From Knoellia sp. Soil729 (lineage in GTDB: Bacteria > Actinomycetota > Actinomycetes > Actinomycetales > Dermatophilaceae): 64,000 nucleotides of DNA. Under the pieces are notes generated by a model that saw only the letters and a program-made list of their open reading frames with translations, ran no database searches and was not told the origin of the DNA. This document shows positions 3,157 through 61,129 of this stretch, in pieces (position 1 is the first letter of the stretch; each line of letters opens with the position of its first letter). The translations under genes and the position numbers were made by a program. The DNA lies in the NCBI RefSeq assembly GCF_001427985.1, contig NZ_LMSA01000002.1, forward strand, positions 509,677 to 573,676, given 5' to 3'.

Positions 3157-3918
3157 TCAGCGCGGCGCCATCCGGAGGGCACCGTCCATGCGGATCGTCT
3201 CGCCGTTGAGGTAGTCGTGGTCGACGATGGCGAGCGCGAGCTTGGCGTACTCCTCGGGCGTGGCGAGCCGCTGCGGGAACGGCACTCCCGCCGCCAGACC
3301 GGCGCGGAACTCCTCGGAGACCGTGGCGAGCATCGGCGTCTCGACGATGCCGGGAGCGATGGTGCAGACCCGGATGCCGTACTGCGCGAGGTCGCGCGCC
3401 GCGGGAAGGGTGAGGCCGACAATGCCGCCCTTGGACGACGCGTATGCCGCCTGGCCCACCTGTCCGTCGTAGGCCGCGATGCTCGCGGTGTTGATGACGA
3501 CGCCGCGCTGGCCGTTCTCGTCGGGGTCTGTCTGCGCGATCGCCTCGGCCGCGACGGCGAGGACGGTGAACGAGCCGATGAGGTTGATCTCGATGACCTT
3601 GCGATAGAGCGCGAGGTCGTGCACGCCCTTCTTGCCAAGGATGCGAGCGCTCGGCCCGATGCCGGCGCAGTTGACGACGATGCGCAAGGGCGCCTCGGCG
3701 TCAGCGCTGGCCTGGGTGACCGCGGCGCGCACCTGCTCCTCGTCGGTCACGTCCGTCGCGACGTACGTGACACCGTCGACCTGGGGTGCCTGCTCGATGC
3801 CTTGGGCCAGGTCGAGCGCAAAGACGTGGGCGCCTTGGGCTGCCAGAGTGGCTGCCGTCGCGGCGCCCAGGCCCGAGGCGCCGCCGGTGACGATGGCGGA
3901 AGTGTGCTGAGTCTGCAT
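3157..3918 (-). CDS. Short-chain dehydrogenase/reductase, HSD10-like
   Basis: 253 residues with the full classical SDR signature: TGGASGLG (11-18) for NAD(P) binding, NCAG (83-86), Ser146, Y159-x3-K163 (YASSK). The N-terminal pattern and the long insertion before NTASIAAYDGQ resemble type II 3-hydroxyacyl-CoA dehydrogenases (HSD17B10 group), so oxidation of 3-hydroxyacyl-CoA or a steroid/short-chain alcohol with NAD+ is likely. ATG at 3918 is used; another in-frame ATG is at 3927. It is the first gene of the minus-strand set that continues into the beta-lactamase-like gene. Confidence 0.85.
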   Translation of the reverse strand: MQTQHTSAIVTGGASGLGAATAATLAAQGAHVFALDLAQGIEQAPQVDGVTYVATDVTDEEQVRAAVTQASADAEAPLRIVVNCAGIGPSARILGKKGVHDLALYRKVIEINLIGSFTVLAVAAEAIAQTDPDENGQRGVVINTASIAAYDGQVGQAAYASSKGGIVGLTLPAARDLAQYGIRVCTIAPGIVETPMLATVSEEFRAGLAAGVPFPQRLATPEEYAKLALAIVDHDYLNGETIRMDGALRMAPR

Positions 3919-57661: not shown

Positions 57662-58624
57662 ATGAGCCCACCCGTCACGGGTGACGACGCGGAGCTGCGG
57701 CGGGGCACGATCCAGGCCTTTCTCGCCTATGGCATCTGGGGGCTGTTCCCGCTCTACTTCCATGCGCTCCAGCCCTCCGGCGCGTTCGAGATCCTCGCCC
57801 ACCGCATCCTGTGGACGGTGGCGTTCTGCGTCCTCGTGCTGCTCGTGCGGCGTGACTTCGGTTGGCTGCGCACCGTCGCGGCGCGCCCCCGCCTGCTGGG
57901 TGGGCTCACCGTCGCCGCACTGCTCATCGCCGTGAACTGGGTCGTCTACGTCCTGGCCGTCATCACCGGGCGCACCTATGCCGCCGCCCTGGGCTACTTC
58001 CTCAACCCCATCGTCACGGTCGGCCTCGGGGTGCTCGTGTTGCGGGAGCGGTTGCGGCCGTTGCAGTGGGCTGCGGTGGCGGTGGGTGCGGCCGCCGCCA
58101 TCTACCTGACGGTGGCCGGCGGAGAGTTCCCGTGGATCGCCGTGTCGGTGGCCCTCTCGTTCGGCTTCTATGGGCTGGTCAAGAAGAAGGTCGGGGCGAC
58201 GCTCGACGCGATGCACTCGCTCACCGTCGAGACGCTGGTGCTCGCGCCGGTCGCTGTCGGGGTCCTGTTCTGGCTCGGCGCGCGCGGCTCGACGACGTTC
58301 GGTGACCACGGCGCCTGGCACACCGGCCTGCTCGTCGCCGCCGGTGTCGTGACGGCGATCCCGCTGCTCTTCTTCGCTGCTGCCGCCCGCCGGATCCCGC
58401 TCGTGACGATCGGCCTCATCCAGTTCCTCACCCCGATGCTGCAGCTCCTCATCGGCGTCGTGCTGCTCCACGAGCACGTGAGCGGGGCGCTCTGGGTCGG
58501 GTTCGGGATCGTGTGGGTGGCCCTGGTGCTGCTGACCATCGACTCCGTGCGCCAGGCCCGGGCCACCCGAATCGTCCGGCGAGCCGACCGCGCCCGCCTC
58601 CCTGACCCCACCTTCCCCGCCTGA
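57662..58624 (+). CDS. rarD: EamA-family transporter, RarD type
   Basis: 320 residues, ten TM helices. RarD signature: GIWGLFPLYFHALQPSGAFEILAHRILW at the N-terminus, YFLNPIVTVGLGVLVLRERL in the middle. RarD was named for chloramphenicol sensitivity in E. coli; real substrate unknown. ATG at 57662, 7 nt after korB. Its stop codon lies inside the left 64-nt inverted repeat. Confidence 0.9.
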   Translation: MSPPVTGDDAELRRGTIQAFLAYGIWGLFPLYFHALQPSGAFEILAHRILWTVAFCVLVLLVRRDFGWLRTVAARPRLLGGLTVAALLIAVNWVVYVLAVITGRTYAAALGYFLNPIVTVGLGVLVLRERLRPLQWAAVAVGAAAAIYLTVAGGEFPWIAVSVALSFGFYGLVKKKVGATLDAMHSLTVETLVLAPVAVGVLFWLGARGSTTFGDHGAWHTGLLVAAGVVTAIPLLFFAAAARRIPLVTIGLIQFLTPMLQLLIGVVLLHEHVSGALWVGFGIVWVALVLLTIDSVRQARATRIVRRADRARLPDPTFPA

Positions 58625-58680
58625 AGTGGGTTTCTCTCACTCCGCGTGACCGCCGCCATCACGCGACGTGAGAGTTTCTC
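58617..58680 (+). repeat. Left 64-nt inverted repeat of the nuclease cassette
   Basis: Matches the reverse complement of 59731-59794 at 58 of 64 positions without gaps; the first 29 nt are identical. Internally it can fold as CTCTCAC (58633-58639), TC, CGCGTGA, 9-nt loop, TCACGCG, AC, GTGAGAG. It begins within the last codons of rarD. Confidence 0.85.
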
Positions 58681-58704
58681 GTCGTTCGGGGGCTCCATCC
58701 GCGT

Positions 58705-59628
58705 TCAGGCTGCGGCGGCGGCGCGCACCGCCGCACGCACCTTCGCCGCCACCACTCCGGGCGTCTCGAGATCGGCCCAGATGATCCGGACAACGGTGTA
58801 GCCCAGCCGGCGGAGGCGGTCCTCCCGCTTCTTCTCCGCCCACAGCACCTCGGGATCCCCGTCCTGGAACTTCACCTTGCCGTCGAACTCGACGACGACC
58901 TTGGCCCCCTCGACGAGGAAGTCCACGCGGGCGACGAAGTTGCCGAAGGCGTTCTGGATCTCGACCTGGGGAGTGACCGGTATGCCGGCCAGCTCCAGAG
59001 CGATCCCACAGCGCGACTCCCCGACGGACTCTCGCAAAGCACACGCGAGCGCTTCCATCGAGCGGGCCTTGTGGGCGTCGGGCCAGTTCTCGACGAGCGC
59101 CACCGCTGCCCCGAGCTCGTCCAGCGTGACCTTTCCAGCGCGAAGGGCACTGTCGGCACTGACGACGCCCTGCTCCACGCCGTGGTCCATGGCGAGCTGC
59201 ACCAGGGCGTCAGCCGGCGCGGCGGCCGGACCCCAGGCCGACTCCACGGACTCGCCCCGCATCGGACCGACCCGGACACCCCTCACGCCCGTGCAGCGAC
59301 TGATGGGGCGGAAGAGCTGTGGCTTGCTGAGGTCGCAGCCCCAGACCGAGACGCCGTGGGCGAGCACTGCGGTGAGGCTGGCAAACACCAGGTCCGGATA
59401 GAGGAGCCGCGTCCCGTGGGCGAGGTGCTCGTGCCACGCCAGGGGCGACGACTCGTCGACGAGGTGCGTCACGGCATACAGGGATCGCATGGGATGCCGC
59501 AGCTCCTTCTCGAGGACGGCCCGCGCCAAGGACGACTTGTCCATGCCGACGCGGTGCGCCTGGACCGTCGTGAACATGCCGTGCTGGCCGGCGGCAAGGT
59601 TGGTCAGGAGGGGTTCGAGTGAGGTCAT
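58705..59628 (-). CDS. DUF559 endonuclease-domain protein with AbiEi-like N-terminus
   Basis: 307 residues. N-terminal winged-helix like the AbiEi antitoxin domain (MFTTVQAHRVGMDKSSLARAV, residues ~18-40); C-terminal VSR/DUF559-type nuclease from ~225 with VARVDFLVEGAKVVVEFDGK (metal-binding Asp/Glu) and YTVVRIIWADLE. Such genes are scattered and multi-copy in actinobacterial genomes. ATG at 59628. The gene is enclosed by two 64-nt inverted repeats and has two DnaA-box-like sites upstream. Confidence 0.85.
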   Translation of the reverse strand: MTSLEPLLTNLAAGQHGMFTTVQAHRVGMDKSSLARAVLEKELRHPMRSLYAVTHLVDESSPLAWHEHLAHGTRLLYPDLVFASLTAVLAHGVSVWGCDLSKPQLFRPISRCTGVRGVRVGPMRGESVESAWGPAAAPADALVQLAMDHGVEQGVVSADSALRAGKVTLDELGAAVALVENWPDAHKARSMEALACALRESVGESRCGIALELAGIPVTPQVEIQNAFGNFVARVDFLVEGAKVVVEFDGKVKFQDGDPEVLWAEKKREDRLRRLGYTVVRIIWADLETPGVVAAKVRAAVRAAAAA

Positions 59629-59679
59629 GCGCCGACGTTCGCCGACTCGAGGGGGCGCGCGCTGCCCGCGAGCCAGATC

Positions 59680-59717
59680 TGTGGACAACGGTCAGCCCTG
59701 CCGGAGGCTGTGGACAG
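59680..59717 (-). promoter_or_regulatory. Two DnaA-box-like sites upstream of the DUF559 gene
   Basis: TGTGGACAA (59680-59688) is the reverse complement of TTGTCCACA, the actinobacterial DnaA-box consensus. TGTGGACAG (59709-59717) differs by one base. Both lie between the DUF559 start and the right inverted repeat. Confidence 0.45.
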
Positions 59718-59730
59718 TCAGCGCGCGAGG

Positions 59731-59794
59731 GAGAACCTCTCACTTTGCGTGGTCGCGGCGGTCAGGCGGAGTGAGAGAAACCCACTTCAGGCGG
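59731..59794 (-). repeat. Right 64-nt inverted repeat of the nuclease cassette
   Basis: Reverse complement of 58617-58680 with six mismatches (58/64 identical). The outer 29 nt are invariant, the inner part carries the changes, and the palindromic core is less perfect than in the left copy. It lies 36 nt before the stop of the sugar-lactone oxidase gene. Confidence 0.85.
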
Positions 59795-59830
59795 CGGGTC
59801 CCGCGGTCTGCGTGGGCAAGTCGGGGCCGG

Positions 59831-61129
59831 TCAGGGGCCGAGGAGGTGCGTCAGGTGCGCGTTGGCGAAGCGGCGGTCAGGGTCGACGCGGTCGCGTACG
59901 CGCTGCACATCACCGAACCGTGGATACAGCCGCGAGAGGTCCTCGGCGCCCAGTGTGTGCAGCTTGCCCCAGTGCGGGCGGCCGGCGTGCTCGCGCACGA
60001 TGCTCTCGAACGCCGCGAACACTCCCCCGTCGTCCATCCGGCGGTACTGGTGCACCGCGACATAGGCGTTCTCCCGCTCGTATGCCGTCGACAGCCAGAC
60101 GTCGTCGGCTCCTGTCGAGCGGACCTCGACAGGGAAGGGCAGCGCCACGTCGTGGGTGTCGATCCAGCCGCGCAGGGCGGAGATCACGGCGGGCAGCGAA
60201 GCGCGCGGGACGGCATACTCGCTCTCGCGGAAACGGACGTCGCGTGAGGTGCAGAACACCTTCCATGAGGTGTCGGTGTACTCCTTGGCCCCGAGCACGC
60301 GCGAGCTGACCCGGTTGAGCCGGGGGACGATGCGCGGGCGGGCCGACGCGACGCGGTTGAGCCCCTCGTAGATGGTGTTGCTGAGGAGCCGCTCGTCGAG
60401 CCACTCCCGCCAGGCGGGCTGCGGCCGCCCCGGGTCGTCGGGCGTGACGCGTGAGTTCCGTTTGAGGAGAACCCGATCGGTGTGCGGGAACCAGTGGAAG
60501 TCGACGTGGTCGAACTCGTGCACCAGCTGCTCGTAGCCCTCGACCACCTCGTCGAGGCGGCCCGGCGACTCGACCGCACGCAGGCGGAAGGCCGGCACGC
60601 ACTGGAGCTCGACCTCCGTGACGACGCCGAACGCACCGAGCCCGACCCGTGCCGCCTGGAAGAGCTCGGCGTCGTGCGAGTCGTCGACCGACACCGTGGA
60701 CCCGTCGGCGAGGACGAGCACCAGTCCCACGACGGCCGAGGCGATGCCCTGGTGGCGGATGCCGGTGCCGTGGGTGCCGGTGGCGATGGCGCCGGCGATG
60801 CCCTGCCGGTCGATGTCACCGAGGTTGGGCAGGGCGAGACCCAGGGCCTCGAGGGCCGGGTTGAGCACGTGCAGCGGAGTGCCCGCGGTGACGCGCACCC
60901 GGCGGCGTGGGCGGTCGACGTCGAGGATGCCGGAGAGGTGCGTGAGTCGCAGCAGCGTGCCGTCCGTCGCGCACAGTGGCGTGAACGAGTGCCCGGCCCC
61001 GACGACGCGGACCCGCTCACCACGGTTCGCCGCCTGTTGCACGGCCCCGGCGACCTGGTCGGCAGAGTGGGGCTCGACGAAGCGTGCCGGCGCCGCGGTG
61101 ACGTTGCCGGCCCAGTTGCTCCACGTCAT
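59831..61129 (-). CDS. FAD-linked sugar-1,4-lactone oxidase (D-arabinono/L-gulono type)
   Basis: 432 residues. N-terminal FAD-binding PCMH domain with VVGAGHSFTPL (candidate covalent flavin His), and the C-terminal ALO domain with the HWGKLH motif near the end. It oxidises an aldono-1,4-lactone or alditol, passing electrons to oxygen or another acceptor. ATG at 61129 overlaps the deaminase/aldolase gene by 4 nt. Confidence 0.9.
   Translation of the reverse strand: MTWSNWAGNVTAAPARFVEPHSADQVAGAVQQAANRGERVRVVGAGHSFTPLCATDGTLLRLTHLSGILDVDRPRRRVRVTAGTPLHVLNPALEALGLALPNLGDIDRQGIAGAIATGTHGTGIRHQGIASAVVGLVLVLADGSTVSVDDSHDAELFQAARVGLGAFGVVTEVELQCVPAFRLRAVESPGRLDEVVEGYEQLVHEFDHVDFHWFPHTDRVLLKRNSRVTPDDPGRPQPAWREWLDERLLSNTIYEGLNRVASARPRIVPRLNRVSSRVLGAKEYTDTSWKVFCTSRDVRFRESEYAVPRASLPAVISALRGWIDTHDVALPFPVEVRSTGADDVWLSTAYERENAYVAVHQYRRMDDGGVFAAFESIVREHAGRPHWGKLHTLGAEDLSRLYPRFGDVQRVRDRVDPDRRFANAHLTHLLGP

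Follow-up and report, generated by a model that had tools for sequence, protein, structure and literature searches.

A DUF559 nuclease gene flanked by inverted copies of a dispersed palindromic repeat in Knoellia and its relatives

Introduction

The spread of short palindromic repeats in bacteria is understood mainly for those that depend on HUH transposases. The best described arrangements are REPtrons and TIRtrons, in which genes for HUH tyrosine transposases are accompanied by flanking repeats (as described in PMC3733652). TnpA-REP cuts single-stranded REPs, and the RAYT enzymes are referred to as domesticated transposases (both as described in PMC8266576). As presented in PMC3733652, at least one large group of repeats has no known enzyme, and the CGTC REPs of C. 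crescentus and others have no dedicated transposase.

The locus considered here centres on a gene for a DUF559 protein. Caulobacter VsrA likewise has a DUF559 domain, of the PD-(D/E)XK type, and is discussed in PMC12907096 as a mismatch-repair endonuclease tied to cytosine methylation; neither 'inverted repeat' nor 'palindrom' occurs in the main text of that paper, and repeats are not a subject of the open-access papers found to name DUF559, as judged by titles and the opening lines of abstracts. No description of a nuclease gene associated with its own repeats was found among the best-ranked papers in searches of the open-access literature.

We analyzed a 64,000-nucleotide stretch of contig NZ_LMSA01000002.1 from Knoellia sp. 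Soil729, hereafter the window, in which an earlier note had drawn attention to a nuclease gene enclosed by two inverted repeats. The Soil729 genome is designated G000 and the other Knoellia genomes G001 to G008.

Results

A single nuclease gene lies between two inverted repeats

The features of the window locus are as follows.

57662..58624, + strand: rarD-type EamA transporter gene, 3' end towards the cassette, stop codon within the left arm
58600..58616, + strand: outward extension of the left repeat, inside the rarD 3' end
58617..58680, + strand: left arm, on the stop-codon side of the nuclease gene; consists of the outer box CCGCCTGAAGTGGGTT followed by a hairpin, strongly self-complementary
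58705..59628, − strand: AbiEi-fold, Vsr-like nuclease gene, 307 aa, ATG start; AbiEi_4 and DUF559 both above Pfam cut-offs
58759..59031, − strand: nuclease domain, residues ~200-290, from alignment and secondary structure
59464..59628, − strand: N-terminal AbiEi_4 winged-helix region, residues ~1-55 (Pfam AbiEi_4, residues 8-54; PADLOC AbiEi models)
59731..59794, − strand: right arm, on the start-codon side of the nuclease gene and in the opposite orientation to the left arm
59831..61129, − strand: FAD-linked lactone oxidase (ALO) gene, 3' end towards the cassette

Alignment reproduced the earlier observation: the arms at 58617-58680 and 59731-59794 pair as reverse complements over their full 64 nt, with no gap and 58 matching positions. 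As the mismatches fall at positions 30, 41, 43, 49, 51, and 59, the outer 29 nt are identical in both. The arms are 1050 nt apart and align locally with a score of 98, whereas 10 mononucleotide shuffles of the region gave no score above 32. The sole gene between them is that for the nuclease, whose stop codon lies 24 nt from the left arm and whose start codon lies 102 nt from the right arm. Internal dyad symmetry, previously claimed for each arm and most strongly for the left, was borne out for the left arm only, which folds far better than its shuffles as single-stranded DNA (z -3.67), whereas the right arm folds no better than shuffled sequence (z 0.1). A copy elsewhere in the same genome (G000:C2:997134-997212) aligns from position 58600 with 92% identity over 79 nt, indicating that the left repeat extends outward to approximately 58600.

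The left arm starts within rarD and overlaps the last 8 nt of that gene. The rarD stop codon falls inside the left repeat (58600-58624), and the C-terminal codons are unlike those of G005 and G004, as if an insertion had replaced the gene end. In three copies, an extra outer stretch resembling CCCACGCAGACCGTGGGACCCG, itself a small palindrome, replaces the usual outer end (59795-59820 at the right arm, L018:3409-3433, and L028:3300-3324).

A terminator scan of 58500-59950 returned two sites where 0.5 were expected, one coinciding with the left arm's outer box (58616-58630) and the other inside the gene, with no site on the right arm. A simple terminator pair, excluded in the earlier note, finds no support as a complete account of the arms. 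The same distribution of sites speaks against a broader reading, which we regard as quite improbable, in which gene-end palindromes, whether bidirectional terminators or MITEs, were moved by other machinery and came to enclose the DUF559 gene by chance, the gene being kept for another role. A known structured RNA was also rejected, since Rfam gave only two matches in 58500-59900, both under gathering scores.

The enclosed gene joins an AbiEi-like region to a Vsr-like nuclease domain

Pfam and Foldseek agree with the initial identification of the enclosed gene as a DUF559/VSR-like nuclease with an AbiEi-like winged helix. An AlphaFold model generated from 54 aligned relatives (pLDDT 94.4, pTM 0.90) gave AbiEi as its top Foldseek match (6y8q, E 2e-5), followed by the homing endonuclease I-Bth0305I (3r3p) with a modest E-value of 7.7e-3, a probability of 1.00, and a TM-score of 0.65 by target length. 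Lower matches included Vsr (1vsr, E 0.045) and R2 retrotransposon proteins (E 0.03 and above), and two poorly fitting ribosomal chains also rank in this list. The modelled nuclease domain thus appears most like I-Bth0305I and Vsr, within the limits of these modest E-values, and the N-terminal AbiEi_4 region is presumed to be DNA-binding. Residues E204, D236, D249, K253, E265, K266, R268, R273, and R281 are invariant across 54 aligned sequences, and some of the acidic and lysine residues of the nuclease core are probably catalytic, judging from the model. Comparison with the G005 orthologue gave a dN of 0.139 and a dS of 1.022, from which the nuclease gene appears to be constrained; the corresponding values (dN/dS) are 0.146/0.722 for rarD and 0.119/0.862 for ALO.

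The likeness to I-Bth0305I, an EDxHD enzyme reported to dimerise on a target of nearly 60 bp (as described in PMC3943268), bears on the possibility of a homing-gene drive. Here the palindrome would be the homing endonuclease site, gene-less alleles and solitary sites would be cut, and the cassette would be copied in by homologous recombination, with repeats that do not transpose alone. We consider this unlikely in light of the distribution and structure of the repeats described below.

The AbiEi fold of the N-terminal part is common to AbiE type IV toxin-antitoxin systems, and AbiEi of Streptococcus agalactiae autoregulates, binding inverted repeats (as described in PMC7319586). Both points would suit a self-regulating defence gene in which the arms are operators of the N-terminal domain, the nuclease is an anti-phage effector, and the dispersed copies are extra regulatory sites. 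Such a gene is very improbable in our judgement. Unlike in AbiE, the AbiEi part is fused to a nuclease domain; no AbiEii partner was present among the three proteins scanned (the nuclease and the flanking EamA and ALO proteins), and the neighbours are a transporter and an oxidase. Moreover, an arm located after the stop codon and solitary copies at the 3' ends of genes would go unexplained.

A defence system was likewise not supported by PADLOC, which gave AbiEi models and no other defence system, or by NCBIfam, which gave no match. A phage origin was rejected because 71 pattern stretches in viral contigs included no relative of the gene. A plasmid search returned one weak match, and 10 distant matches to the C-terminal part of the paralogue L038.

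Solitary copies of the repeat are dispersed in the Soil729 genome

A whole-genome search with the window repeat, termed family 1, returned 33 HSPs which, with overlapping HSPs merged by hand, correspond to 25 places, of which two are the arms and 23 lie elsewhere. Copies thus also occur alone, as the earlier note had allowed for. The result that would have counted against its reading, one copy of the repeat kept in all relatives whether or not they have the gene, did not arise, the repeat being multicopy and dispersed. None of the 20 loci holding the 23 solitary copies contained a relative of the nuclease gene (E<=1e-6). Eight of these 23 copies matched on both strands and are therefore largely palindromic, and two both-strand copies that were folded form long single-strand hairpins (z -9.1 and -7.2). 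No other family-1 copy exceeds 92% identity to the left copy of the window, so there is no evident sign of recent movement.

Using a crude gene finder, we assigned a gene context to 32 solitary copies, comprising all 23 of family 1 and 9 of the 14 of family 2 (described below). Twelve lie between convergent genes, 18 between tandem genes, one between divergent genes, and one apparently inside a predicted gene; by this measure 30 of 32 occupy convergent or tandem gaps, i.e. positions near gene 3' ends. For comparison, the same crude approach sorts the gaps of >=60 nt in the window itself into 4 convergent, 16 tandem, and 8 divergent. A preference for 3' ends is what gene-end palindromes enclosing the nuclease gene by chance would lead one to expect. 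The many unrelated sites at which solitary copies are found weigh against homing, as they require copying of the repeat without the gene.

A RAYT-driven REP was ruled out, as Y1_Tnp (PF01797) gave no match in the whole G000 genome at E<=0.001. Further structure accompanies the solitary copies at two loci. At L010, two copies in direct orientation (3320-3392 and 3803-3874) bracket a predicted gene of small size (3408-3785), and the locus contains no DUF559 relative. At approximately 3220-3280 of L027 (G000:C1:364279), the unit TCAAGCGAAGTCGCCCGTCG is arranged head to tail beside a solitary copy, as would result from amplification of part of the hairpin foot.

Inverted flanking repeats recur around related nuclease genes

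A close inverted pair, 26-100 nt in length, was found at 14 of 16 other Knoellia DUF559 loci, the exceptions being L032, which has no pair, and L034, with 21 nt only. This count covers 16 of the 23 loci of the genus; the window, L081, and L082 were examined separately and four weaker loci (L035-L038) were left out. A second test used 80 loci fetched from named genomes, the best 80 of 211 obtained with one peptide pattern and hence biased to near relatives. As several of the 80 are the Knoellia loci counted above, the two tests are not independent. For each, 400 nt upstream of the gene were aligned to the reverse complement of 400 nt downstream with a threshold score of >=45, and 77 of the 80 were testable, the flanks of L132, L142, and L181 being too short.

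This revealed an inverted flanking pair at 41 of 77 related genes, or 47 of 77 with either orientation allowed. By identity to the window protein, inverted flanks were found at 21/23 relatives (>=46%), 15/27 (36-45%, the remaining 12/27 being below threshold), and 5/27 (<36%); in this last class flanks in either orientation were found at 11/27, with the direct alignment at least as good in 8 of the 11. No control ORF of the same loci was enclosed (0/160 reached threshold; best scores 33 inverted and 35 direct), a result that counts against enclosure by chance, and sliding placements, scored in the inverted orientation only, gave 0/431 with a best score of 38. The arrangement therefore recurs around other DUF559 genes in several genera, with different repeats, and a single-locus curiosity was rejected.

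Thirty-seven strong cases, consisting of 36 fetched loci with a score of >=60 and the window, are clustered on a 72-row protein tree: their distribution takes 12 changes, where shuffles need 24.2 on average. Of these cases, 33 fall within one supported clade of 40 rows made up almost entirely of Intrasporangiaceae. For the 37 strong fetched loci, the median distance is 121 nt from the upstream arm to the matched start and 21 nt from the stop to the downstream arm, and arms are 55-121 nt long (67-121 nt in 35 of the loci). The best stems have a median length of 19 bp, and 48/74 arms contain a stem of >=18 bp versus 9/480 random windows. Many arms thus comprise a whole hairpin, not half of a split target, which is a further point against homing.

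Several other features were observed at these loci. L093 (G005:C12:427956) holds a DUF559 copy with one in-frame TGA that is still within a 99-nt inverted pair (71%); this TGA is not in the tblastn range of the same locus (L125). A short motif resembling GTATGCCGTCCGC lies just inside or beside the arms at several loci (L095:4120-4139, the L114 arms, and L034:1478-1498), apparently independently of repeat family. Among more distant relatives, Blastococcus L173, L162, and L179 share flanking palindromes for which the direct alignment is better than the inverted.

Different nucleases are associated with different repeat families

At 31 of 37 loci the two arms are more alike than either is to the arms of any other locus, and repeat similarity is correlated with protein identity (Mantel r 0.62; best of 2000 permutations 0.24). 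That paralogues have different repeats, which track the protein, is difficult to reconcile with a gene enclosed by chance.

Family 2, whose cognate gene is G000:C3:432569, gave 24 HSPs at 16 places in G000. Of the eight congeners searched, G002, which has a related gene and arms of its own, gave 3 HSPs, G005 gave two 23-nt matches, and six had none; in these searches, only the genome with the cognate gene has family 2 in abundance. Family 3, searched for with an arm from K. flava (L140), gave 19 HSPs in G000, 37 in G004, 26 in G005, 19 in G008, 16 in G002, and 0 in G006, as well as 18 in G007, 11 in G003, and 5 in G001, three genomes without a close cognate gene (in G007, no relative at E<=1e-50). 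Family 1 gave at least 5 HSPs in G007, at least 2 in G003, and at least 2 in G004, with 0 scored in G001; these congener counts are lower bounds, at most 11 candidates having been scored per genome. A Janibacter repeat family gave 13-39 HSPs in each of 6 genomes.

The presence of family-1 and family-3 copies in genomes without a close cognate gene indicates that copies persist, or move, without the gene, and that dependence on a resident gene is not strict. On one reading the gene was lost and the repeats survived; repeats without the gene would also be expected if other machinery moved them. At one intergenic position the repeat belongs to family 1 in G005 and to family 3 in G000 (L070:1501; L028:5466-5545), and repeat families may replace one another at a site.

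Cassettes are present or absent at syntenic junctions

At the C3:432569 site, the cassette is found in five of nine Knoellia genomes (G000, G001, G003, G004, and G005) and is missing from four, in which the flanking matches are 15 (G006), 20 (G007), 44 (G002), and 133 nt (G008) apart. In G006 two convergent stop codons almost touch. By eye, the arms at this site are related in four occupied genomes and different in G000. A junction with the cassette in some genomes and without it in others is also what homing into gene-less alleles would produce.

The G008 gene, 64% identical to the window protein, is at another convergent junction and has a similar outer box; the corresponding junction is 126 nt with no cassette in G004 and other sequence in the remaining congeners. 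Cassettes therefore sit between convergent stop codons, and empty sites exist. At the window locus itself, G005 has the gene and both arms, while the fetched loci of G002, G006, and G007 and the same junction in G008 yielded no repeat. Between rarD and the lactone oxidase gene, where the earlier note proposed to look for an empty site, G004 has one solitary repeat and no DUF559 gene; the relatives' gaps are too diverged to define such a site to the base. One solitary copy of G008 has no counterpart at the syntenic place in G000. The junctions compared, which are diverged, show no visible target-site duplication.

Discussion

The probable explanation of these results, which we hold with fair rather than firm confidence, is a REPtron-like element built on a Vsr-like nuclease in place of an HUH transposase, which spreads or maintains its cognate palindromes. 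Comparison between genomes shows association of gene and repeat, dispersal, co-divergence, and presence/absence. The earlier proposal of a mobile or homing cassette, following the logic of RAYTs and REPs with a PD-(D/E)XK-type nuclease, is favoured by the multicopy repeat, the recurrence of the arrangement in several genera, and presence/absence; that movement proceeds through cleavage and transposition by the nuclease itself is what we infer. Points against this reading are the repeat copies in genomes without a close cognate gene, the scarcity of flanking repeats at distant relatives, and the lack of a visible target duplication; the solitary copies could also have been spread by another enzyme.

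REPtrons resemble the cassette in several respects described in PMC3733652: palindromic repeats flank the gene, each repeat family goes with a specific element, solitary copies lie near 3' ends between unidirectional or convergent genes, and some genomes keep repeats after gene loss, as the cassette families may also do. The cassette departs from them in its enzyme, an AbiEi and Vsr-like nuclease where REPtrons have an HUH tyrosine transposase, and so is not itself a REPtron. Its arms are also longer than the 20-40 bp of REPtron repeats, its copies number in the tens where REPs usually exceed 100 (as stated in PMC2817692), and the GTAG tag that REPs have at the hairpin foot is absent, by eye, from the two window arms. 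TIRtrons, with TIRYT genes, are similar in that one gene is surrounded by long inverted repeats, which can be self-complementary and in some cases come from dispersed families, but TIRYTs keep the HUH motif and catalytic tyrosine, unlike the window nuclease (as described in PMC3733652). The predicted fold of the window protein resembles I-Bth0305I in that a similar catalytic fold is joined to a DNA-binding region (as described in PMC3943268). Unlike EDxHD homing endonucleases, the window gene is outside any intron or intein, has dispersed palindromes at its flanks, and has a DNA-binding part of AbiEi type.

For a REPtron-like element of this kind, the nuclease would recognise its cognate palindrome via the AbiEi-like domain, perhaps as a dimer; such binding is suggested by analogy, because AbiEi binds inverted repeats (as described in PMC7319586). 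The nuclease would then cut at or near the palindrome, in its double-stranded form or as an extruded hairpin. New gene-end sites would receive a copy of the repeat, and on rare occasions of the entire repeat-gene-repeat unit, when the break is repaired or replication passes it. By analogy with the RAYTs, a state in which transposition has stopped and the nuclease only maintains its repeats is also possible.

The presence of the gene with its own repeats in many relatives suggests an undescribed kind of mobile DNA. More tentatively, and with slightly more doubt than belief, we propose that Vsr-like PD-(D/E)XK nucleases with AbiEi-type DNA-binding domains form a separate class of prokaryotic repeat-making enzymes that generate, spread, and diversify their own palindromic families without involvement of HUH enzymes. 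It might be related nucleases on which orphan repeat families, the CGTC REPs among them (as presented in PMC3733652), depend. If the reading of the cassette as a REPtron-like element is true, a different nuclease superfamily with its own repeats would represent a second, independently evolved solution, AbiEi_4-DUF559 genes would gain a testable role, and the co-varying pairs of protein and repeat would provide a ready series for tests of specificity.
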